Shown: positions 20,229 through 32,493 of the stretch, piece by piece
How positions within the stretch are numbered: position 1 is the stretch's first letter
Layout of the letters: the number at the start of each line of letters is the position of its first letter
Assembly: GCA_017414715.1 (NCBI GenBank)
Contig: JAFQKV010000065.1
Span: forward strand, 1 to 39,939
Direction: 5' to 3'
Source of the DNA: Clostridia bacterium
GTDB taxonomy: Bacteria; Bacillota; Clostridia; Oscillospirales; QAMX01
Length of the DNA stretch: 39,939 nucleotides
Translations under genes and position numbers: made by a program
Notes under the pieces: model-generated
Database searches by the model: none
What the model was told of the DNA's origin: nothing
Seen by the model: only the letters and a program-made list of their open reading frames with translations

Positions 20229-22187
20229 ATGGCCGACATGAAGGATATTATTTCCCTCTCCTGTGAGTACGGCGCCAATGCCGATTTCGTTCTCGCCGGC
20301 GGCGGCAACACCTCCGTCAAGGATGAGGACTATCTTTGGGTCAAGCGTTCCGGTACCGGTCTTGCCGGCATCACCGAGGACGGCTTTGTCAAGCTCTGCC
20401 GTAAAGGCCTTGCCGCTACCCTTAAAAAGAGATATTCCGGCACCGAGGATGAGGTCGAGGCCGAGGTTCTCGCCGGTATGATGAGCGCCCGCTGCCGCGG
20501 CGAGGAGGCAAAGCGCCCCAGCGTCGAGGCTCTGCTGCATGCTCTCTTCCCCCAGAAGCTCGTTGTGCATCTCCATCCCGCCGCCATCAACGGCATGACC
20601 TGCGCAAGGGATGCCAAGGCCGCCGTGGTGAAGGTTCTCGGCGAGGATCTTATCTGGATGAACGAGACCAAGCCCGGTTATACCCTTGCTGCCTCCGCTG
20701 CCCGTGCCCTGAAGGCCTATAAGAAGGAAAAGGGTGCCGACTGCAACCTTATGGTTCTGCAGAACCACGGTATTTTCTTCGCTGCCGATACGGCAGAGGA
20801 GATGCGCGCCCTGATCTCCGGCGTGATGGCCAAGGTGGACGCTGCCGCTGACGAGAAGCCCGATATGACCGAGGCGGAGTTTGATGCCGACCTCGTTGCC
20901 AATCTTGCCTGCGAGATCCGCATGCTTGCCGCTCCCGGCGCTTCCTCCTTCGTCACCTTCACTGCGCCGAAGAGCCTCCTTTGCATGATGGAGGACAAGG
21001 CCTCCTTTGCTCCCATCAACGGTACATACACCCCCGACCACATCGTTTATACCGGCCATATGCCCGCCTACGCCGAGTCCGCGGAGGATGAGGCTGTGGC
21101 CAAGGCCATTGCCGGCTTTAAGAAAAAGTACGGTGCCGCGCCCCGCATCGTCTGCGTCAAGGGCGTTGGCTGCTTTGCCGTCGGCTCCTCCAAGAAGAAC
21201 GCCGATATCGCCGCCGCCGTCTTCCGTGACGCGGTGAAGATCGCCGTTTACACCAAAAACTTCGGCGGCAACCGCTTTATGGCCCCCAAAATGGTCTCCT
21301 TCATCCGCAACTGGGAGGTGGAGAAGTATCGCTCCTCCGTGTCCCTTGCCGGCGCGGGCGCAAAGCGCCTTTCCGGCCGTATTGCCATCGTCACCGGCGG
21401 TGCCCAGGGCTTCGGCTACGGTGTTGCTGAGGAGATGTGCGCGGAAGGTGCCTCCGTTGTTATCGCTGATATGAACGCCGAGGGCGCAGCCAAGGCTGCC
21501 GAGACCCTCTGCGCCGATTTCGGTGCCGGTGCGGCCTTTGCCGTTGCCTGCAACGTGGCCGACGAGGCCTCCGTTGAGAATCTCGTCCGCGAGACCGTCT
21601 GCCATTACGGCGGTCTGGACGTTTTTGTCAGCAACGCCGGTATCCTGCGCTCCGGCGGTCTCGAGGATATGGATCTCAAGACCTTTGATCTTATGACCAA
21701 GGTCAACTACGAGGCCTACTTCCTTTGTGTCAAGTATGCCGCCCGCATCATGCGCCGCGAGCATGCCTTTGATGCCGACCGTTATTTCGACATCATCCAG
21801 ATCAACTCCAAGTCCGGCCTTTCCGGTTCCAACCGCAACTTTGCCTATGCAGGCGGTAAGTTTGGCGGCATCGGCCTGACCCAGAGCTTTGCGCTGGAGC
21901 TGGTGGATCACCGCATCAAGGTCAACTCCATCTGCCCGGGCAACTTCTTCGACGGTCCCCTGTGGAGCGATCCGGAGAAGGGTCTCTTCATCCAGTATCT
22001 CCGCTCCGGCTAGGTGCCCGGTGGGAAGACCGTGGAGGATGTGAAGTTCGCCTATGAGATCAAGGTCCCCATGCGCCGCGGCTGCGGCACCAAGGACGTT
22101 GCCCGTGCCCTCTTCTACATTATCGAGCAGGAGTACGAGACCGGTCAGGCTGTGCCTGTCACCGGTGGACAGAATATGCTCAATTGA
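20229..22187 (+). pseudogene. Class II aldolase / short-chain dehydrogenase fusion, interrupted by an in-frame TAG
   Basis: The frame encodes a class II aldolase domain (about 1-360; GGGNTSVK at 24-31, zinc ligands H114 and H116 in HLHP, H180 in QNHGIF) joined to an SDR domain (about 380-651; nucleotide motif TGGAQGFG from 389, S527, Y540 and K544). The family (YuxG/RhaEW-like) cleaves L-rhamnulose 1-phosphate to dihydroxyacetone phosphate and L-lactaldehyde and oxidises an aldehyde or sugar. Codon 595 is TAG (22011-22013). The same frame then continues for 57 codons with family-like sequence (VPGGKTVEDVKFAYE, VPVTGGQNMLN) to TGA at 22185-22187. Homologues usually have lysine at this place, so one base change (AAG to TAG) explains it. 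Without read-through the product is 594 residues, keeping the aldolase but losing the SDR C terminus. It could be a recent mutation, sequencing error or read-through. Confidence 0.82.
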
Positions 22188-22190
22188 CAA

Positions 22191-22229
22191 ATGCCTCCGC
22201 TGCCTGTAAAATATAGGCAGCGGAGGCAT
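22191..22229 (+). repeat. Perfect 15-bp hairpin without a T run
   Basis: ATGCCTCCGCTGCCT (22191-22205) and its exact complement (22215-22229) flank a 9-nt AT-rich loop. No T tract follows on either strand, so it is not a classic terminator. It lies between the aldolase/SDR gene and the PHP gene, the widest gap within the operon. It could protect or delimit mRNA segments. Confidence 0.8.
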
Positions 22230-22274
22230 CTATGCAAAGATTTGCCCCCAAAAAGGAGCTGCAAAGAGGATACG

Positions 22275-23546
22275 ATGAACATTTGCCAACTGGAAAAACA
22301 GCTTAACGATCCCTCCCTTGCCGCAAGACAGGAGGCGCTCACCGCCCTTGTGAATGCGGAAAAGGCAGGGGAGATCCCCGCCGCCCCCATCGGCTCGGAC
22401 GTGAACAACCATATCCACACCTGGTATTCCTTCTCTCCCTATTCTCCCACGGCGGCGGTGTGGTTTGCCCACCGGGCAGGCCTTTCCACCGCGGGCATCA
22501 TGGATCATGATTCCGTGGCGGGCATCCGGGAGTTCCACGAGGCCGGCCGCATCGTCGGCATGGCCACCACCGGCGGCATGGAGTGCCGCGTCTACGTCGG
22601 CGATACCGCCATCCGCGGCCGCCGCGTCAATAACCCCGACCAGAACGATATCGCCTACATCGCCTTCCACGGTCTGCCCGTGGCAAGCCTTCCCGCAGTG
22701 GAGGCCTTCATCGCTCCCCGCCGGGAGATGAGATGTGAGCGCAACCGCAAGATGTGCGCCCGCATCAGCGAAAAGTATGCTCCCTACGGCATCAGCCTTG
22801 ACTTTGACCGGGACGTGTACCCCGTCTCCAAGGCGGCTGAGGGCGGCAGTGTCACCGAGCGCCACATTCTCTGGGCCCTTTCCCTGAAGCTCATTGAAAA
22901 ATTCGGCCGCGGCGAGGGCCTCATCCGCTTCCTGCGGGCGGAGCTCGGCCTTTCCGTTTCCGCAAAGAACGAGGGCTGGCTGCTCGACGTGGAGAGCGAC
23001 AAGTACGTCTACGATCTGCTGGGCGTGCTCAAGAGCGATACCTCCTTCTTCTACCTGCCTGCTGATGCCGAATGCGCTCCCATTGCGGAGGCTGTGGCGG
23101 TCTGCGAGGCCGCCGGCGGCATCTGCGCCTACGCCTATCTTGGCGACGTGGGGGATTCCGTCACCGGCGACAAGCGCGCCCAGAAGTTTGAGGACGAGTA
23201 TCTGGACACCCTCTTTGACGTGCTGAAGACCACCGGCTTCCGCGCCGTCACCTACATGCCCTCCAGAAATACCCCCGCGCAGCTTGCGCGCATCCGCGAA
23301 AAGTGCCGTGCGGAGGGCTTCTTCCAGATCAGCGGCGAGGATATCAACTCTCCCCGCCAGTCCTTCGTGTGCGTGGCTGCCCGCGCGCCGGAGTTTGACA
23401 ACCTCAAGGAGAGCACCTGGGCCCTCATCGGCCACGAAAAGCGCACCCTGAAGGATCCCAAGGACGGCTTCTTCGGTGCGGCGGCGCTTTCCGAGCACCC
23501 CGATCTTGAAGCCCGGACGGCAGCCTTTGCCGCCTCGGCAAGATAA
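22275..23546 (+). CDS. PHP-domain metal-dependent phosphoesterase-like protein
   Basis: The 423-residue protein contains a PHP domain, a trinuclear-metal hydrolase fold seen in histidinol phosphatase, nucleoside-5'-phosphate phosphatases and polymerase proofreading domains. Metal-ligand motifs are H46 and H48 (NNHIHT), D77-H78-D79 (MDHDS), E103 (GMECRV) and the late GEDINSPRQ. The region from about 110 to 330 is longer than in minimal PHP phosphatases. AAAGAGG precedes ATG 22275; an upstream in-frame ATG lies inside the hairpin and has no ribosome binding site. It sits between the aldolase/SDR and rhamnulokinase genes, so it may hydrolyse a phosphorylated sugar in the pathway; no specific role is proven. 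Confidence 0.82.
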   Translation: MNICQLEKQLNDPSLAARQEALTALVNAEKAGEIPAAPIGSDVNNHIHTWYSFSPYSPTAAVWFAHRAGLSTAGIMDHDSVAGIREFHEAGRIVGMATTGGMECRVYVGDTAIRGRRVNNPDQNDIAYIAFHGLPVASLPAVEAFIAPRREMRCERNRKMCARISEKYAPYGISLDFDRDVYPVSKAAEGGSVTERHILWALSLKLIEKFGRGEGLIRFLRAELGLSVSAKNEGWLLDVESDKYVYDLLGVLKSDTSFFYLPADAECAPIAEAVAVCEAAGGICAYAYLGDVGDSVTGDKRAQKFEDEYLDTLFDVLKTTGFRAVTYMPSRNTPAQLARIREKCRAEGFFQISGEDINSPRQSFVCVAARAPEFDNLKESTWALIGHEKRTLKDPKDGFFGAAALSEHPDLEARTAAFAASAR

Positions 23547-23557
23547 GGAGAACGCAT

Positions 23558-25051
23558 ATGGCAACCAAAAAGATCATTACCTTTGACTACGGCGCCACCA
23601 GCGGCCGCGGCATCCTCGGAGAGTATGACGGCAGCCGCATCACCGCCACGGAGCTGCACCGCTTCTCCAACGACCCCGTCCGCGTTACCGGTCATCTGAC
23701 CTGGGACGTGCTGCGCCTTTTCTTTGAGCTGAAGGCAGGTCTCATCAAGGCGGCCATCGCCGGGCACAAGGACATCGAGTCCATCGGTGTGGACACCTGG
23801 GGCGTGGACTTCGGTCTGCTCAACGCCTACGGCCAGCTCATCGGCAATCCCTTTGCCTACCGCGATGAGCTGACGGAGGGGGAGATGGAGCGTGTCTTCG
23901 GCATCGTGCCGAAAAAGGAGATCTACGACCGCACCGGTCTGCAGTTCCTGCGCTTCAATACCCTTTTCCAGCTGACCGCCATCAAGGAGAAGTATCCCGA
24001 GATCCTTGCGGGCGCAAAGGATCTGCTCCTCATGCCCGACCTCATCAACTATCTGCTGACCGGTGTGAAGGCGGCGGAGTTCTCCATCGTTTCCACCACG
24101 CAGATGTTCAACCTGCAGAACCGCGACTGGGATTATGAGCTGCTTGCAAAGCTCGGCATTGATCCCTCCATCCTGCAGAAGATCGTGCCCTCCGGCACCA
24201 TGCTCGGCGGCCTGCTGCCGGACATTGCCGAGGAGACGGGCATCGAAAATGCCAGGGTCTGCGCCGTCTGCGGACATGACACCGGCAGCGCCGTGCTGGC
24301 CATCCCCATGGACCGCGGTGAGCGCTGCGTATACCTCTCCTGCGGCACCTGGAGCCTGCTCGGCGTGGAGCTTTCCGCTCCCCGTAACGACGATGCGGCC
24401 TTTGCTATCGATTACACCAACGAGGGCGGCTTTGATAACACAACCCGCTTCCTGAAGAACATCATGGGCCTGTGGATCTACACCGAGGTCAAGCGTGAGT
24501 TTGAGCGCCGCGAGGGTGAGGTGGACTACGACACCCTCAATGCCGAGGTGCTTGCCGCCCCGGGACAGAAGTGCTACATCGATCCCGATGACGATCGCTT
24601 CATGACTCCCGGCCGCATGGTCCGCAAGATCCGCGAGTACTGCCGGGAGACCGGCCAGCCCGAGCCTGAGACCCGCGGCGAGGTGCTGCGCTGCGTGCTG
24701 GAGAGCCTTGCTCTCAAGTACCGCTACGCCATTGAGCAGCTGGAGGGCGTTCTCGGCTACTACCTGCCCTGCATGCGTGCCCTCGGCGGCGGCTGCAAGA
24801 ACCGTATCCTCATGCAGTTCACCGCCAATGCCATCCGCCGCCCCGTTTATGCCGGACCGGTGGAGGCCACCGCCTTCGGAAACATGGCCGCACAGCTCAT
24901 CACCCTCGGCGAGGCCAAGGATCGCTGGGAGGCGCGGCAGATCGTTGCCCGCTCCACCGACATCGAGTCCTACGAGCCGAAGGATGGCGAGACCTGGGGA
25001 GCCATGTATGAAAAATTCAAAGAGATCATTACCAAAGGAGCAGAGAAATGA
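23558..25051 (+). CDS. rhaB: Rhamnulokinase
   Basis: The 497-residue FGGY-family sugar kinase phosphorylates L-rhamnulose at O1. The first phosphate-binding loop is DYGATSGR (10-17), GVDTWGVDFGLL matches the RhaB signature, CGHDTGSAV is the interdomain motif, SCGTWSLLGVE contains the adenosine-site loop, and GGGCKN is the C-terminal ATP motif. Length fits RhaB (about 480-490). AAGGAGAA precedes ATG 23558, 11 nt after the PHP gene. The stop overlaps the rhaA start by 4 nt, so the two are translationally coupled. Confidence 0.94.
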   Translation: MATKKIITFDYGATSGRGILGEYDGSRITATELHRFSNDPVRVTGHLTWDVLRLFFELKAGLIKAAIAGHKDIESIGVDTWGVDFGLLNAYGQLIGNPFAYRDELTEGEMERVFGIVPKKEIYDRTGLQFLRFNTLFQLTAIKEKYPEILAGAKDLLLMPDLINYLLTGVKAAEFSIVSTTQMFNLQNRDWDYELLAKLGIDPSILQKIVPSGTMLGGLLPDIAEETGIENARVCAVCGHDTGSAVLAIPMDRGERCVYLSCGTWSLLGVELSAPRNDDAAFAIDYTNEGGFDNTTRFLKNIMGLWIYTEVKREFERREGEVDYDTLNAEVLAAPGQKCYIDPDDDRFMTPGRMVRKIREYCRETGQPEPETRGEVLRCVLESLALKYRYAIEQLEGVLGYYLPCMRALGGGCKNRILMQFTANAIRRPVYAGPVEATAFGNMAAQLITLGEAKDRWEARQIVARSTDIESYEPKDGETWGAMYEKFKEIITKGAEK

Positions 25052-26301
25052 GCAATATCACCAAGGCTTATGAGCTTGCGCGCGAGCGCTATGCCGCCCT
25101 CGGCATCGATACCGATAAGGTCATCGAAAAGGTTCTTTCCACCCCTCTTTCCATGCATTGCTGGCAGGGTGACGACGTCACCGGCTTTGAGAACGTCGGC
25201 GGAGCTCTTTCCGGCGGTATTCAGGTGACCGGCAACTACCCCGGCAAGGCCCGCAACCCCGAGGAGCTGCGCGCCGACATCGACAAGGCCTTCTCCCTCA
25301 TCCCCGGTGAGAAGAAGGTCAACATCCACGCCTTCTATCTGGAGGCCGATGAGAAGGTCGACCGCGATGCCATCGAGGCAAAGCACTTCGACAACTGGAT
25401 CGACTGGGCCAATAAGGGCGGCTTCGGTCTGGACTTCAACCCCACCTGCTTCTCCCATCCTTACAGTGAGGATGGCTACACCCTTTCCAGCGGCAATGAG
25501 ACCATCCGCAAGTTCTGGGTCGAGCACGTCGTCCGCAGCCGTCAGATCGCCGAGTACATCGGTAAGAAGACCGGCAAGATCTGCGTCAACAACATCTGGG
25601 TTCCCGACGGCGCCAAGGACAACGTAGCGGACCGCTTCGCTCCCCGCGCAAGACTTGCCCAGTCTCTGGACGAGATCTTTGCCGTCAAGTGCGATCCCGC
25701 CTACGAGCGCTCCTCTCTCGAAAGCAAGGTTTTCGGTATCGGCAGCGAGGCCTACGTGGTCGGCAGCCATGAGTTCTACATGGGCTATGCCATGAAGAAC
25801 AACCACATGCTCACCCTCGATATGGGTCACTATCATCCCACCGAGAGCGTGGCGGATAAGATCTCCTCCATCCTGCTCTTCTCCGATAAGGTGCTCTTCC
25901 ACGTTTCCCGTCCCATGCGCTGGGACTCCGACCACGTGGTCATCATGAACGACGACCTCATGGCCATCGCAAACGAGCTGGTGCGCAACGAGTTCCTCGA
26001 CCGCACCTACCTCGCTCTGGACTACTTCGACGGCTCCATTAACCGTGTCGCCGCCTGGGTCATCGGTATGCGCAACACCCGCAAGGCTCTGCTGCGCGCC
26101 ATGCTTGAACCCTTTGCCGCCATCCGCGAGATGGAGTATGCCGGCGACCGTACCGGCGTCCTCGCCATCGCCGAGGAGAGCAAGTCCATGCCCTGGACCG
26201 CCGTTTGGGATTACCTCTGCGAGAAGTGCGGCATGCCCGCCGGTCAGGAGTGGCTTGACGAGGTCCGTGCCTACGAGAAGAACGTTCTCGCTGCCCGCTA
26301 A
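25048..26301 (+). CDS. rhaA: L-rhamnose isomerase
   Basis: The 417-residue protein matches RhaA in length and sequence pattern: TPLSMHCWQGDDVTGFE near the N terminus, GLDFNPTCFSHP (about 130-141), the metal-site region VVGSHEFYMGYAM and LDMGHYHPTE, and VSRPMRWDSDHV. It isomerises L-rhamnose to L-rhamnulose with Mn2+ and Zn2+, the first catabolic step. AAAGGAG precedes the ATG, which overlaps the rhaB stop. It is the clearest indicator that the operon is for rhamnose or a close analogue such as L-lyxose or L-mannose. Confidence 0.96.
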   Translation: MSNITKAYELARERYAALGIDTDKVIEKVLSTPLSMHCWQGDDVTGFENVGGALSGGIQVTGNYPGKARNPEELRADIDKAFSLIPGEKKVNIHAFYLEADEKVDRDAIEAKHFDNWIDWANKGGFGLDFNPTCFSHPYSEDGYTLSSGNETIRKFWVEHVVRSRQIAEYIGKKTGKICVNNIWVPDGAKDNVADRFAPRARLAQSLDEIFAVKCDPAYERSSLESKVFGIGSEAYVVGSHEFYMGYAMKNNHMLTLDMGHYHPTESVADKISSILLFSDKVLFHVSRPMRWDSDHVVIMNDDLMAIANELVRNEFLDRTYLALDYFDGSINRVAAWVIGMRNTRKALLRAMLEPFAAIREMEYAGDRTGVLAIAEESKSMPWTAVWDYLCEKCGMPAGQEWLDEVRAYEKNVLAAR

Positions 26302-26737: not shown

Positions 26738-27751
26738 TTATGCCCGCGGGCCGAAGCCGGAGGCTTTATAGATGCCGTCGATGACGCGGAGGGCGCGGAT
26801 TCCCTCATGTCCGTCCACAGCAAAGGGACGTCCCTCAGCGATCGAGGCGTAGAAATCCTCGATGATGAAGGAATGGCAGTTGCCCCAGTAGGACTTGTCG
26901 TCCGTCTTGGGGGTGGTATCCATGATACGCTCCACGCGCTTATCCGCATGGTGGATGGTAAGGGCATCGTCTGTGGCAATGAGAAGCGCATTTTCGCACT
27001 GGATCTCAAACTCAATGGGCGAATTGCTCTTCCACGCATTGGAGGCAAAGAAGAGTGCCGTGGCTCCGCTGTCAAAGCGAAGGTGTGCCGTGGCGGTATC
27101 CTCGACCTCGATCTTGCCCTCCAAAAGCTCGGAGAAAATGCCGCAGTTTGCGCGGATACCGGTGGGATCACCGAGGGTCCAGATGAGCAGGTCAAGGGTG
27201 TGGATGGACTGATTGATAAGCACGCCGCCGCCCTCGGTCTCGAAGCTTCCGCGCCAGCCGCTGTCGGCATAATAGGGAACGTCGCGGAACCAGGTGACGA
27301 TGCCCTTGCCGCCGATGGGTTTGCCGTAAATGCCGGAGAGCACCAGCTCCCGCAGCTTTGCGTTGATGAACTTATAGCGGTTCTGGAAGCATACGCCGAG
27401 ATACTTGCCCGCGGCCTCGGCGGCACGGATCATGGCCTCCGCATCCTCGGGGGTGGTGGCCATGGGCTTCTCGGTGAAGACGTGCTTGCCTGCTGCAAAG
27501 GCGGCGATGGCGATGGGGGCGTGCAGCCAGTGGGGGGTGCAGATATGGATGCAGTCGATATCCTCCCGGGCGAGAACGTCCCGATAGTCGGTATAATAGC
27601 TGACACCGTATTTTTCGCCGGCGGCAGCGGCGCGATCCTCGCGAATATCGCAAACGGCGACCAGTTCGGCAAGCGCGCTCCCGGTCAGAGCCTCGGTATG
27701 TCTTCTGGAAATATTGCCGCAGCCAATGACGGCGGAACGGAAGGCTTTCAT
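26738..27751 (-). CDS. Gfo/Idh/MocA-family oxidoreductase
   Basis: The 337-residue protein is of typical family length. The NAD(P) motif is GCGNIS (10-15), the catalytic lysine motif is EKP (94-96), and LINQSIHTLDLL (178-189, with H184) is the active-site helix of the C-terminal domain. Such enzymes oxidise or reduce sugars, polyols or their derivatives. AAAGGAG precedes ATG 27751. It is 39 nt downstream of the GH32-like gene and ends at the shared terminator, so it is the last gene of a three-gene leftward operon. The substrate is unknown; GH32 linkage suggests a fructoside or related sugar. Confidence 0.92.
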   Translation of the reverse strand: MKAFRSAVIGCGNISRRHTEALTGSALAELVAVCDIREDRAAAAGEKYGVSYYTDYRDVLAREDIDCIHICTPHWLHAPIAIAAFAAGKHVFTEKPMATTPEDAEAMIRAAEAAGKYLGVCFQNRYKFINAKLRELVLSGIYGKPIGGKGIVTWFRDVPYYADSGWRGSFETEGGGVLINQSIHTLDLLIWTLGDPTGIRANCGIFSELLEGKIEVEDTATAHLRFDSGATALFFASNAWKSNSPIEFEIQCENALLIATDDALTIHHADKRVERIMDTTPKTDDKSYWGNCHSFIIEDFYASIAEGRPFAVDGHEGIRALRVIDGIYKASGFGPRA

Positions 27752-27790: not shown

Positions 27791-29335
27791 TCAATAAGGA
27801 TTCGTGGGAGATACCTCATGGGCGCAGACGTTGCGGAAGCGGACCCTTGCATCCGCAGCAAGACCGACGCCGCAGGCTGCGGCAGGGTCGGAATTGTATA
27901 CCCGGCGGCAGATGGCCTGCCGGTCGTTTGCATAAACCTCGACCACGGAGCGGTCGATGAAAATATCCAGCCGGAGCTCCTCGCCCTCCGCAAGGCGGAA
28001 GGGAGCGCGCTCAACGATGCGGCGGCCCTCGGTGCCAACCTTGGTGGCATCAAAGACCAGCTCGCCGGCAGTTTTGTCATAGTAGATCTGGCAGAGCTCG
28101 GAAAGATCCGATGTCGCACGGACGTAGGCACCCACACGACGTGCGCTGCCCGTATCGGCGGTGAAGGAGAGGTGGCAGAGGTCGCCGTTTTTCACGGCGA
28201 GGGGTGCCGCGCCGGAGATCTCCATATCGCCAAAGCGCTGCTCGTTATAGAACAGACGGGTGACTTCTTCCGCGGGGGCCATGCGGAGAGTGCCGTCCTC
28301 GCCGCGCCAAAGCTCACGGGGAAGACCGTAGACGCCGCTCCATCCGAAGCGCTCAAAGTCACCGTCAAGATTATCCAAAAGCCACGCCCACATGATCTGA
28401 CGGCCACGGCCGTCGATCAGCGCCTCCGGGGCGAAATAGGTGTTGTCCTGCCAGGACATGCGGCCGTGGACCTCGGGGTAGAAATGCTCGTCCCGATAGT
28501 CGCCGATGTAGTACTGAGCCCCCTTGTTGTGGGCGATGAAAAGCTGCAGGAATTTATCACTCATTTTCCCGCCGCCGCGCTGCGCAGGCAGGGGAAGGAA
28601 GGAGGGGCACATATCGTCCTCGGTCTCGTCCGTCCAGGAATTGTCCGTCCGGCGCTCGTAGAAGCGGTGGACGAATTCCCAGCTGCGGAGATCGCGGGAA
28701 CGGAAGAGCTCCACATGGTCACCGCGGTATTCGGCGGGAGAGTCCGCCTCGCGGCCGTAGAGATTGAGGGTGATGAGGTTGCCCGTCTGCATGTAATAGA
28801 AGCCATCGTGCTTCCAGATGTTGCTTGGGTCGGCGCAGCCGAGGTGATGCACGGTGCCGTCCTCGGCGGTATAGTCCATGCTGCCCCACTCCTTGCCGTC
28901 GAGTCCTTCGATGGCGATGGGCTGCAGACGCGTCCATTCCTCGTAGGGGGGCTCGGCCACGGCGAGGGCGATGCCGCCCTTATCACCGCCGTTTTTGGAG
29001 GGGAATTTCCAGAAGGAGAGATAAGCCTTGCCGTCGTCATCTACAAAAGCCCCGCCGGAGAAACAGCCCTCATCCCCCTCAAGGCTGCCGATGGCATCGG
29101 GATGATGCCGCCAGTGGAGCAGATCTGTGGAGGAAATATGTCCCCAATGGAAGGCGTTGGTGGAGCGGCGGCGGTAAAGATACATCAGGTGATAACGACC
29201 GTCGGCAAAAAAAGCACCGTTGGGATCGCCCGGGCGGCCGTCATCATCCGCAATGGCGAAATGATAGGCGGGACGGTAGGGATCGGCGAGCATTTTTTCG
29301 CGGTAGGCGCGGACGGCGGCGATGGTTTCTTTCAT
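27791..29335 (-). CDS. GH32-like protein with altered catalytic motifs
   Basis: The 514-residue protein has the five-bladed beta-propeller plus C-terminal beta-sandwich layout of glycoside hydrolase family 32 (invertase, levanase, fructanase). Recognisable blocks are GDPNG (36-40; D37 at the nucleophile position), WGHISSTDLLHW (64-75), CFSGGAF (91-97) and the C-terminal LDIFIDRSVVEVYAN. The RDP motif is changed to ADPSN (168-172). At the acid/base motif, usually ECP, the sequence is MCP (242-244), preceded by two aspartates. No signal peptide is visible, so a cytoplasmic protein is expected. AAGGAG precedes ATG 29335. It lies between two Gfo/Idh/MocA genes. It may be a GH32 subfamily with another mechanism or substrate, or a non-hydrolytic relative; a simple sucrase call would be unsafe. 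Confidence 0.85.
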   Translation of the reverse strand: MKETIAAVRAYREKMLADPYRPAYHFAIADDDGRPGDPNGAFFADGRYHLMYLYRRRSTNAFHWGHISSTDLLHWRHHPDAIGSLEGDEGCFSGGAFVDDDGKAYLSFWKFPSKNGGDKGGIALAVAEPPYEEWTRLQPIAIEGLDGKEWGSMDYTAEDGTVHHLGCADPSNIWKHDGFYYMQTGNLITLNLYGREADSPAEYRGDHVELFRSRDLRSWEFVHRFYERRTDNSWTDETEDDMCPSFLPLPAQRGGGKMSDKFLQLFIAHNKGAQYYIGDYRDEHFYPEVHGRMSWQDNTYFAPEALIDGRGRQIMWAWLLDNLDGDFERFGWSGVYGLPRELWRGEDGTLRMAPAEEVTRLFYNEQRFGDMEISGAAPLAVKNGDLCHLSFTADTGSARRVGAYVRATSDLSELCQIYYDKTAGELVFDATKVGTEGRRIVERAPFRLAEGEELRLDIFIDRSVVEVYANDRQAICRRVYNSDPAAACGVGLAADARVRFRNVCAHEVSPTNPY

Positions 29336-29420: not shown

Positions 29421-30578
29421 TCAGATCTCGGGGATCTCGATCTCGATCTCGCGGCCCAGGTCGGAGGAACGGGCAATGCCGTCCAGAATGGCCTGGTTAT
29501 AAAGGATCTGGGAAGAGGGGATGGGAGCGGGGGTGCCGTCGCGGGAGGCATCCAGGAAGGTGCGGATCTTGTGGTCGAAGAGATTGCCGCTGCCTTCCAG
29601 CACGGGCACCTGGGTTTCCACTGTGGTGGTGCCGATGGTGCGATAGATGGTCATGGGGCCGCCGATGGAACCGTTCCAGCAGTCGGTGGAGGGGATACGG
29701 AGGCCGCCCTTGGTGCCGAGGATGATGATGTCACCCGGGGTGTCGATGTGCATGGCCCAGGCAATACGGAAGTCGAGGATAATGCCGCCCTCCAGTCGGA
29801 CAAAGGCTGCGGCGAAGTCATCCACGCCGAAAAGCTTGGCATATTCGGGATGACCGACGTAGTAGTTGGGATCCTTGCCGAAGAAGTCGGACTTATAGCC
29901 GGTAACGGTCAGAGGCTTGGGATAGCCGACGGCATTGAGGACCATATCCAGAGAGTAGCAGCCGATGTCAGCCAGTGCGCCGAGACCGGCGGTCTCGTTC
30001 TCAATGAAGGTGGTGCCGAAGGGGGTGGGGATACCGCGGCGGCGGCCGCCGCCGGTCTGAATGTAATACACGTCGCCGAGCTCGCCGCTCTCAACGATCT
30101 TCTTGACCATCTTCATGTTCTTGTCAAAGCGGGGCTGGAAGCCGATGGACAGAACCTTTCCGCTGCGCTTCTCGGCGCGGCAGATCTCAACGGCCTCGTC
30201 CAGCGTGACGCACATGGGCTTCTCCAACAGTACGTTGACACCGTGATCCAGCGCATAGATGGTGCAGGGGGCATGTTGACGGTTGTAGGTGCAGACGCTG
30301 ACGCAGTCCAGATCCTTTTCACCGTCGATCAGGGCGTTGCCGCTGTCATAGTGACGGGCACCCTCAATACCCATACGCTTGGCAAAGTCCTCGGTCTTGC
30401 CGGGAACGATATCGGCGAGGGCGACGATATCCACATCATCCATGCGCAGATAGCTTTCGGCATGGGATTCTGCGATCCAGCCGCAGCCGATGATACCGAC
30501 ACGCATGCGGCGGCCGGTCTTGCGAGTTTCAACGGCGGCTTCGTTTTTAAAGGCATCGAGCCCGGAAATCTGAGCCAT
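29421..30578 (-). CDS. Gfo/Idh/MocA-family oxidoreductase with N-terminal extension
   Basis: The 385-residue protein carries GCGWIA (31-36) for NAD(P) binding, EKP (119-121) with the catalytic lysine, and DIGCYSLD (204-211), where Y208 stands in the usual histidine position. About 24 residues precede the Rossmann fold; AAAGGAG lies before ATG 30578 and supports this longer start over an internal ATG. It is the first gene of the leftward operon, with its own strong promoter. The tyrosine variant occurs in other branches of the family. The substrate is unknown. Confidence 0.92.
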   Translation of the reverse strand: MAQISGLDAFKNEAAVETRKTGRRMRVGIIGCGWIAESHAESYLRMDDVDIVALADIVPGKTEDFAKRMGIEGARHYDSGNALIDGEKDLDCVSVCTYNRQHAPCTIYALDHGVNVLLEKPMCVTLDEAVEICRAEKRSGKVLSIGFQPRFDKNMKMVKKIVESGELGDVYYIQTGGGRRRGIPTPFGTTFIENETAGLGALADIGCYSLDMVLNAVGYPKPLTVTGYKSDFFGKDPNYYVGHPEYAKLFGVDDFAAAFVRLEGGIILDFRIAWAMHIDTPGDIIILGTKGGLRIPSTDCWNGSIGGPMTIYRTIGTTTVETQVPVLEGSGNLFDHKIRTFLDASRDGTPAPIPSSQILYNQAILDGIARSSDLGREIEIEIPEI

Positions 30579-30615
30579 TTTTCAATCTCCTTTACAGGAA
30601 GTATTTTATGGAATA

Positions 30616-30644
30616 ATCATAGCTTTTCGGGAGAGTTTTGTCAA
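30616..30644 (-). promoter_or_regulatory. Promoter of the oxidoreductase-GH32 operon
   Basis: On the minus strand, TTGACA (30644-30639), exactly 17 bp, then TATGAT (30621-30616): a near-consensus promoter. The -35 overlaps the stop codon of the upstream DUF1294 gene. Confidence 0.75.
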
Positions 30645-30940
30645 GAGAAAAAGCCAAGTTTGGCGCGATAAATGATGAAGACGGCCAGGGCGATCCATGC
30701 AATGAGAATGGCGGGAACGCCGAGGGTGAATTTTTTGTGCAGCGTCTTGTGACGAAGGGTGTACATGGCGATGAGCGCACCCACGGAGCCGCCAAAGGCA
30801 GCGAGCAGCAAAAGGGTCTTTTCGGGTACGCGGCGGCGGTGCTTGCGGGCTCTGCGCTTATCGGCAGCATAGACGATATAGGTGACGAGATTGAGGAGAA
30901 AAAGGGCTCCGACGGTCCACAAAAGCAGTACCTTTGGCAT
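30641..30940 (-). CDS. DUF1294 small membrane protein
   Basis: The 99-residue protein has three or four hydrophobic segments (near 5-25, 42-60 and 75-95) and the family pattern AADKRRARKHRRRVPEKTL followed by AAFGGSVGALIAMYTLRHKT. DUF1294 proteins are small inner-membrane proteins of unknown function. ATG 30940 is chosen because GGGAGG lies 11 nt before it; an in-frame GTG at 30952 would abut the ribosome binding site. A TATAAT on the minus strand near 30980 could be its -10. It is divergent from uxaB. Confidence 0.85.
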   Translation of the reverse strand: MPKVLLLWTVGALFLLNLVTYIVYAADKRRARKHRRRVPEKTLLLLAAFGGSVGALIAMYTLRHKTLHKKFTLGVPAILIAWIALAVFIIYRAKLGFFS

Positions 30941-31010
30941 GTATACATACACCTCCCAAACGGTTTTTCTGTATTATAACATACTTTGCCTGCCGGAGGA
31001 AAGAAACGCA

Positions 31011-31039
31011 TTGCAAATTGCAGATCCGAAGTGTATAAT
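31011..31039 (+). promoter_or_regulatory. Promoter of uxaBA
   Basis: TTGCAA (31011-31016), a 17-bp spacer and TATAAT (31034-31039). The start codon GTG at 31075 follows after GGAGG (31062-31066). Confidence 0.65.
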
Positions 31040-31074
31040 TTCCTTAAAGATGTAATTTCTCGGAGGATGGGACA

Positions 31075-32493
31075 GTGACGGAGAAAAGAACGCGCCCGCT
31101 GCGGGTGCTGCAGTTTGGCGAGGGCGTTTTCCTGCGGGCCTTTGCCGACTGGATGATCGACGTGGCAAACGAGACAGGTGCCTTTGATGGAGACGTTGTC
31201 ATTTTTAAACCCAGAGCGGGCAAGCTCTCCAATGCCTTCCAAAGGCAGAAATGCCTCTACACCGTTGCCCTCCGGGGAAAATCGGAGGGGAAAATCGTGG
31301 ATAGCCGCCGCGTCATTACCTGTGTGCGGGACTGCATCTCTCCTCATGAGACATCGGAGGCTTTTTCTGCCCTTGCAGAGGAGCCGGAGCTGCGTTTCTG
31401 CATCTCCAACACCACAGAGGCAGGCATTGCGCTGGATCCTTGTGACCGGGATGACGGTATTCCCGCCACGTTTCCCGGAAAAGTGGCAAAATTCCTCTAT
31501 CTGCGCTGGCGGCATTTTGCCGGGGCGGCGGATAAGGGCCTGATTTTTCTGCCGACGGAACTGATTGAAGAAAACGGTGCCCGTCTGCGGGAATATGTGC
31601 TTGTGCTGTCCGAGACCTGGGGTTATCCGGCAGATTTCATTGCGTGGGTCAGGGAGGCCTGTGTCTTTGCAAATACCCTTGTGGACCGCATCGTTACCGG
31701 AAAGCCGGAGGAGGAGCTGATTCCCTATGTGGATGCACTTCTTGATGCGGCGGAGCCCTTTGCGCTTTGGGTCATCGAAAGTGAGCGGGATATCTCCGGT
31801 GAGTTCCCCTTGCACAGGGCGGGGCTTCCGGTGGTTTTCTGCCGGGATCTGACCCCTTACCGGGAACGCAAGGTACGAACCCTGAACGGCGCGCATACAT
31901 CAAGCGTGCTGCTCGGGTGGCTGCTTGGCTGCGAAACGGTGGGCGATTGCCTGCGGGATGAGGATATGCGTGCCTTTATGGAGCATGCGGTCTTTGACGA
32001 TATTGTTCCCCATGTTCCCCTGCCCCGTGCGGAGGCGGAGGCCTTTGCCCGGGCGGTGTTTGAACGCTTTGAAAACCCCTTCCTGCGCCACAGTGTGCTG
32101 GCTATTTCCCTCAATTCCGTATCCAAATGGCGTGCCCGTGTGCTGCCGAGCCTTAAAGATGCCTATGCGGCGGGGACGGTTCCTGCGGCGCTGGTCTTTT
32201 CCTTTGCGGCGCTGCTTGCTTTCTATACTGCGGCGGCGGATGGTGAGGCGGTGACCGCCGACGGACGGGCCTACACCGTTCGGGACGATGCGGCGGTGCT
32301 GGCTTTCTTTGCGGAGAATTGTCGGCTGCCAACTGCAGAATATGTGCGCAGAGCTGTTGAAAAAAAGGAATTCTGGGGTGAAAATCTCGGAGAATATCCC
32401 GGCTTTGCCGAGCTTGCGGAAAACTATCTTGCGGATATCCGTGCCCACGGTGCCCGCGCTGCACTGCGGGCGTTTTTGGAGGGTATACAATGA
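31075..32493 (+). CDS. uxaB: Tagaturonate reductase (altronate oxidoreductase)
   Basis: The 472-residue protein belongs to the polyol-specific long-chain dehydrogenase family (mannitol dehydrogenase-like). It begins with VLQFGEGVFLRAFADWMID, a UxaB hallmark that forms the NAD loop, and contains LPTELIEENG, NTLVDRIVTG and the active-site region KVRTLNGAHTSSVLLGWLLG. It reduces D-tagaturonate to D-altronate with NADH in galacturonate catabolism. The start is GTG 31075, with GGAGG eight bases upstream. Its stop overlaps the uxaA start by 4 nt. UxaC and KDG kinase/aldolase genes, needed to complete the pathway, are not in the window. Confidence 0.93.
   Translation: MTEKRTRPLRVLQFGEGVFLRAFADWMIDVANETGAFDGDVVIFKPRAGKLSNAFQRQKCLYTVALRGKSEGKIVDSRRVITCVRDCISPHETSEAFSALAEEPELRFCISNTTEAGIALDPCDRDDGIPATFPGKVAKFLYLRWRHFAGAADKGLIFLPTELIEENGARLREYVLVLSETWGYPADFIAWVREACVFANTLVDRIVTGKPEEELIPYVDALLDAAEPFALWVIESERDISGEFPLHRAGLPVVFCRDLTPYRERKVRTLNGAHTSSVLLGWLLGCETVGDCLRDEDMRAFMEHAVFDDIVPHVPLPRAEAEAFARAVFERFENPFLRHSVLAISLNSVSKWRARVLPSLKDAYAAGTVPAALVFSFAALLAFYTAAADGEAVTADGRAYTVRDDAAVLAFFAENCRLPTAEYVRRAVEKKEFWGENLGEYPGFAELAENYLADIRAHGARAALRAFLEGIQ

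Follow-up and report, generated by a model that had tools for sequence, protein, structure and literature searches.

The D-D-E triad of family GH32 is regarded as fixed, and a gene that encodes the GH32 fold with ADP in the place of RDP and MCP in the place of ECP raises the question of what its product does, and with which residues. Such a gene lies on the minus strand of the 39,939-nucleotide stretch of a Clostridia bacterium contig analyzed here (JAFQKV010000065.1, assembly GCA_017414715.1; hereafter the window), where it had been singled out from sequence as a GH32-like protein with a clear GDPNG nucleophile region and altered RDP and ECP motifs.

A Complete GH32 Fold

The open reading frame at 27791-29335 (minus strand) is intact, encodes 514 amino acids, and has an AAGGAGA ribosome-binding site preceding its ATG.

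27791..29335, minus strand: GH32-like protein, 514 aa, without a signal peptide; five-bladed propeller and C-terminal beta-sandwich (Pfam, AlphaFold2)

Pfam matches to GH32N (PF00251, 6.5e-33, 115 bits against a cut-off of 22.1) and GH32C (PF08244, 1.5e-20, 74 bits against a cut-off of 21.9) together span the protein. The match to GH43 (PF04616) stayed under its cut-off (25.9 bits; cut-off 32.2), and NCBIfam gave sub-threshold matches only, to sucrose-6-phosphate hydrolase and BfrA. An AlphaFold2 model built with 29 relatives as input reached a pLDDT of 90.9 and a pTM of 0.91; it superimposes on the Thermotoga maritima invertase 1uyp with a Z score of 36.5, and on GH32 invertases with Z scores of 35-36.5 across about 420-455 aligned residues. 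By Pfam and by this model, the window protein is a complete GH32 fold, and the coordinates, fold and nucleophile region originally proposed were borne out by the reading frame, Pfam and the alignments described below.

The same genome separately keeps an ordinary GH32 gene with NDPNG, RDP and ECP (G000:C107). A third, distant GH32-like gene (L003, G000:C33:3552-4079) has VGDC in place of NDPNG and retains ARDP and ECS/ECP; with similar genes at L147, L148 and L151, it represents another divergent GH32-like type.

Replaced Active-Site Residues

Residue equivalences rest on alignments made independently by phmmer (to PDB chains), MAFFT and HMM-HMM comparison. In all three, Ala168 falls on the RDP arginine and Met242 on the ECP glutamate; residues 168-172 read ADPSN, so both motif changes were as first reported. 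The residues concerned, all on the minus strand, are as follows, with counts for the close members and the wider branch defined in the next two sections.

29216..29230: GDPNG, residues 36-40; nucleophile Asp37 retained, fructose-binding Asn36 replaced by Gly
29177..29179: Leu53, where FYQ has the substrate-binding Gln; Leu in 28/28 close members, Gln in 18/18 ordinary GH32
28826..28834: ADP, residues 168-170, replacing RDP; Arg lost, stabilizer Asp169 retained; Ala168 in 28/28 close members, Asp169 in 72/72 of the branch
28604..28621: EDDMCP, residues 239-244, replacing ECP; acid/base Glu is Met242 (28/28), with Asp240 two residues upstream (72/72 of the branch)
28529..28531: His269, first residue of the loop past strand B of blade IV; 72/72 of the branch, 3/59 ECP proteins
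28466..28468: His290; 65/72 of the branch
28424..28426: Glu304 in FAPEAL, replacing Gln (YAPQ); 60/72 of the branch, Gln in 45/59 ECP proteins

The losses thus go beyond the RDP arginine and the ECP glutamate to N36G and Q53L, and position 304 has also changed, from Gln to Glu. Compared with the GH32 beta-fructosidases T. maritima BfrA (1uyp), the Bifidobacterium adolescentis enzyme (6num) and Arabidopsis cwINV1 (2ac1), the window protein has the same propeller and beta-sandwich over its full length (Z 35-36), and shares the nucleophile Asp, the RDP Asp, FSG, WGH, the Cys-Pro after the acid/base site and a C-terminal SVVEVYAN. Unlike them, it lacks the acid/base Glu, the RDP Arg and the fructose-binding Asn and Gln, and has new Asp240 and His269 residues and Glu304 for Gln. 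Among the GH32 features tested, the nucleophile Asp is present (Asp37), and the full RDP motif (Asp kept, Arg lost), the ECP glutamate and the fructose-binding Asn and Gln are absent. With three defining sequence features failing, we class the protein with the GH32 fold as one of its divergent branches and not as a beta-fructosidase.

Published mutants indicate what such changes cost. In an exo-inulinase, the equivalents of Asn36, Gln53 and Arg168 bind substrate, and both R181L and R181K are dead (PMC7545266). In BT1760, the acid/base mutant E221A is about 4,000-fold less active, although levan binding persists (PMC6560043). By homology to these mutants of the equivalent Arg and Glu, the window protein should not act as an ordinary fructosidase, and on the same grounds the initial view is right that the two altered positions bear on how substrate is held and how the proton is donated.

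Conservation and Spread of Close Relatives

Scanning of genomes turned up 30 relatives, which belong to Clostridia, Planctomycetota, Verrucomicrobiota, Lentisphaerota, Armatimonadota and Bacteroidota. A set of 28 close members (window included; 43-95% identical; six phyla) was compared with 18 ordinary GH32 proteins. Ala168, Leu53 and Met242 are invariant in the close members, as are Asp37, Asp169, Glu239, Asp240, His269, His290 and Glu304; the ordinary proteins have Arg, Gln, Glu and Gln in columns 168, 53, 242 and 304. With Arg and Glu at 168 and 242 in all 18 of the latter, the two motif changes are more than a chance pattern. Comparison of the window gene with its two nearest relatives gave dN/dS values of 0.056 and 0.15. 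The gene is under purifying selection, and the shared losses are not decay.

A close copy is present in 10 of the 21 genomes of the window's own family, and none was found in 148 genomes from elsewhere in the phylum. Every Clostridial member falls in one clade nested among environmental members, a placement that fits a single transfer into gut Clostridia.

A Single Branch Without the ECP Glutamate

GH32N matches were listed in 25 genomes carrying relatives, and many of them were fetched and aligned, giving a GH32 tree of 136 rows. In it, 72 proteins that lack the ECP glutamate and have Asp240 (58 distinct by their last 300 residues) form one branch with an SH-aLRT support of 98. Because proteins were labeled as shifted by the presence of Asp240 together with the missing Glu, what the tree and alignment show independently is that the members form a single branch, carry His269 and lack the Arg. 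Asp169, Asp240 and His269 occur in all 72 members and Asp37 in 71, the remaining one having a gap. The RDP arginine is found in none of them (Ala 38, Phe 14, Trp 12, Tyr 6, Gly 2) and in 54 of the 59 ECP proteins; among the latter, an Asp aligns at 240 in six and a His at 269 in three, and the two never occur together.

The branch comprises at least four subclades: ADP/EDxMCP, which includes the window, FDP/(E)DxACP, WDP/EDxSC, and Y/FDP or GDS with (E/D)DGACP. The fructose-binding Asn and Gln are both kept by another subclade than that of the window. Two proteins of one genome (L084 and L102, G219) adjoin the branch with a support of 93; they keep the Glu, with WD replacing RDP and WELP replacing WECP, so that Arg and Cys are lost. 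Going by their sequences, they are an apparent intermediate in which the Glu was kept and the RDP Arg lost, and the tree suggests that the standard ECP glutamate was probably lost once, in the common ancestor of the branch. Three genomes (G209, G219 and G222, those of L039, L050 and L053) show a strong expansion, with 11-16 GH32N matches each that include several subclades of the branch.

Domain Architecture and Gene Neighborhood

Most non-Clostridial relatives carry a signal peptide, as read from their sequences, and a LamG domain (Laminin_G_3), and the FDP relative tested also carries LamG. The LamG fusion is therefore probably ancestral and was lost in Clostridia. In Planctomycetota and the neighboring groups the protein would mostly act as an exported, LamG-fused enzyme, and in the window organism as a cytoplasmic enzyme from an operon with two Gfo/Idh/MocA oxidoreductases.

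26738..27751, minus strand: Gfo/Idh/MocA oxidoreductase (Pfam), probable operon partner, 39 bases downstream
29421..30578, minus strand: Gfo/Idh/MocA oxidoreductase (Pfam), probable operon partner, 85 bases upstream

This order, with the GH32-like gene between the two oxidoreductases, recurs in the two closest genomes within the genus and is limited to that genus. The open reading frame at 30592-31896 (minus strand) was rejected as a further operon gene, a mannitol-dehydrogenase-like gene lying there on the opposite strand. Rhamnose isomerase, kinase and altronate-dehydratase-like genes flank the operon, and the rhamnose catabolism genes adjoining it (20229-26301, plus strand) include:

20229-22013, plus strand: aldolase-SDR fusion, rhamnose catabolism
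23558-25051, plus strand: rhamnulokinase-like, below its cut-off
25048-26301, plus strand: L-rhamnose isomerase

No gene family recurs across phyla around the GH32-like gene, and outside the window's genus its neighbors name no substrate. In three Clostridial genomes, unusual glycyl radical enzymes are encoded a few genes away (L036:450-2672, L038:3057-5045, L064:4189-6321); they are PFL-like, far under every NCBIfam cut-off, and at L038 the GH32-like gene comes immediately after those for the enzyme and its radical SAM activase. At L040 (4555-11120) and L060 (2738-12923), branch members lie near an ordinary GH32 gene, with an MFS sugar transporter following in L040 and one upstream of the branch member in L060.

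Asp240 and His269 as a Candidate Acid/Base

In the AlphaFold2 model, DSSP assigns residues 242-250 to strand A and 258-268 to strand B of blade IV, the two forming a hairpin. Such a hairpin brings residue 240 next to 268-269, so Asp240 and His269 should be neighbors at the funnel rim, at the former Glu site. That they are close and pocket-facing, at facing ends of the hairpin, is an expectation from the DSSP strand register of the model. Since Glu304 is absent from one subclade, Asp240 and His269 are the sole newly fixed ionizable pair of the branch.

These features suggest a mechanism in which Asp37 would hold the place of the nucleophile (or general base) and Asp169 that of the transition-state stabilizer, and in which Asp240, at the rim of the blade that held the old Glu and two positions ahead of it, would have taken over proton donation, probably as an Asp-His dyad with His269 of the neighboring strand. 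The window's subclade has lost the three residues of the -1 subsite that recognize fructose, Asn, Gln and Arg, and its substrate is therefore probably not a beta-fructofuranoside. We give about an even chance to this reading as a whole, that of an active glycosidase with its acid/base rebuilt as Asp240-His269 and, for the window's subclade, probably a non-fructoside substrate. Clade-wide conservation and the invariant Asp240 and His269 strengthen the earlier expectation that a changed mechanism or substrate is likely. Of the two aspartates that the original prediction offered as the acid, Asp240 stands as a good candidate, and Asp241 is dropped, being D or N even in close relatives. A metal site built from the D/E/H residues was also considered, and nothing favors it over the dyad.

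A precedent for such a mechanism exists in the GH117 3,6-anhydro-L-galactosidases. These are five-bladed propeller glycosidases (PMC9728383), and crystal structures together with QM/MM identified a His302/Asp320 dyad as the general acid (PMC11574756), PpGH117 combining the His/Asp dyad with an Asp base. The precedent covers the kind of general acid that the window protein may use, and the inverting mechanism is that of GH117; no GH117 chain was among the PDB sequence and fold matches listed for the window protein, lists that are full of GH32 chains. A wider proposal, which we rate as less likely than not, is that the whole branch is a functionally separate glycosidase family or subfamily, active in Planctomycetota, Verrucomicrobiota and gut Clostridia on glycosides of sugars other than fructose. 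In its common ancestor Glu would have been replaced, once, by an Asp-His dyad convergent with that of GH117, possibly with a change from retaining to inverting.

The invariant residues could alternatively serve ligand binding or structure, and the main rival, an unlikely one in our view, is a pseudoenzyme that has kept the pocket and lost cutting, binding sugar for sensing, storage or adhesion. The mutants cited above lend themselves to this, BT1760 E221A still binding levan with its catalysis crippled (PMC6560043) and the inulinase being killed by Arg to Leu or Lys (PMC7545266), as does the LamG fusion of many relatives, often a binding module. The literature offers a named precedent in the plant "defective invertases": like GH32 acid/base mutants, they share with the window protein a GH32 fold that has lost catalytic or binding residues. 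Unlike in either, the losses here extend across a deep bacterial branch, in which new ionizable residues have appeared and are invariant; Asp37 and Asp169 stay invariant through this divergence, and binding alone would not need the newly fixed Asp/His pair.

Glu304 or His290 could instead be the acid in the window's subclade. The original prediction had named an intact acid/base glutamate elsewhere, with normal invertase activity, as the outcome that would count against it, and a glutamate does stand at 304 in 60 of the 72 members, though not in all. Gained in blade V for the usual Gln, it is invariant in the window's, FDP and WDP subclades, and as the replacement acid/base of the window's subclade it has a rather small chance of being right: one subclade sharing the Glu loss has Ser, Thr or Ala there, and in the model Asp37 and residue 242 start their strands, with Glu304, four residues along strand A (300-307), at a deeper level.

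A shade less probable still is an ordinary beta-fructosidase that tolerates the substitutions, with Asp240 standing in for Glu242 and a fructoside substrate retained. The top matches of the window protein are beta-fructosidases, and the relatives in L040 and L060 have an ordinary GH32 gene and an MFS sugar porter close by, yet Asn36, Gln53, Arg168 and Glu242 are all replaced in 28 of 28 close members, and single Arg or Glu changes abolish or nearly abolish the activity of tested enzymes (PMC7545266, PMC6560043). A decayed gene or annotation artefact, which the missing motifs alone might suggest, is refuted by the intact frame, the ribosome-binding site, purifying selection and conservation in 10 of 21 family genomes and six phyla, and has next to no chance.

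Novelty and Implications

A profile built from the window's subclade and its FDP relatives gives PDB chains no more than 234 bits, against 740-883 bits for members of the window's subclade, and no solved structure of the branch came to light. Searches of open-access PMC papers for divergent, inactive or GH32-like branches turned up no account of the branch or of its motif set.

Profile libraries match the branch genes most closely to invertase or sucrose-6-phosphate hydrolase, names that would mislead if the entire branch had another invariant set of acids. Such a branch would also be a natural example of an acid/base residue that has moved within a conserved fold, and the apparent intermediate L084/L102 makes the order of the steps testable. 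The branch may, in addition, hide a new substrate specificity.
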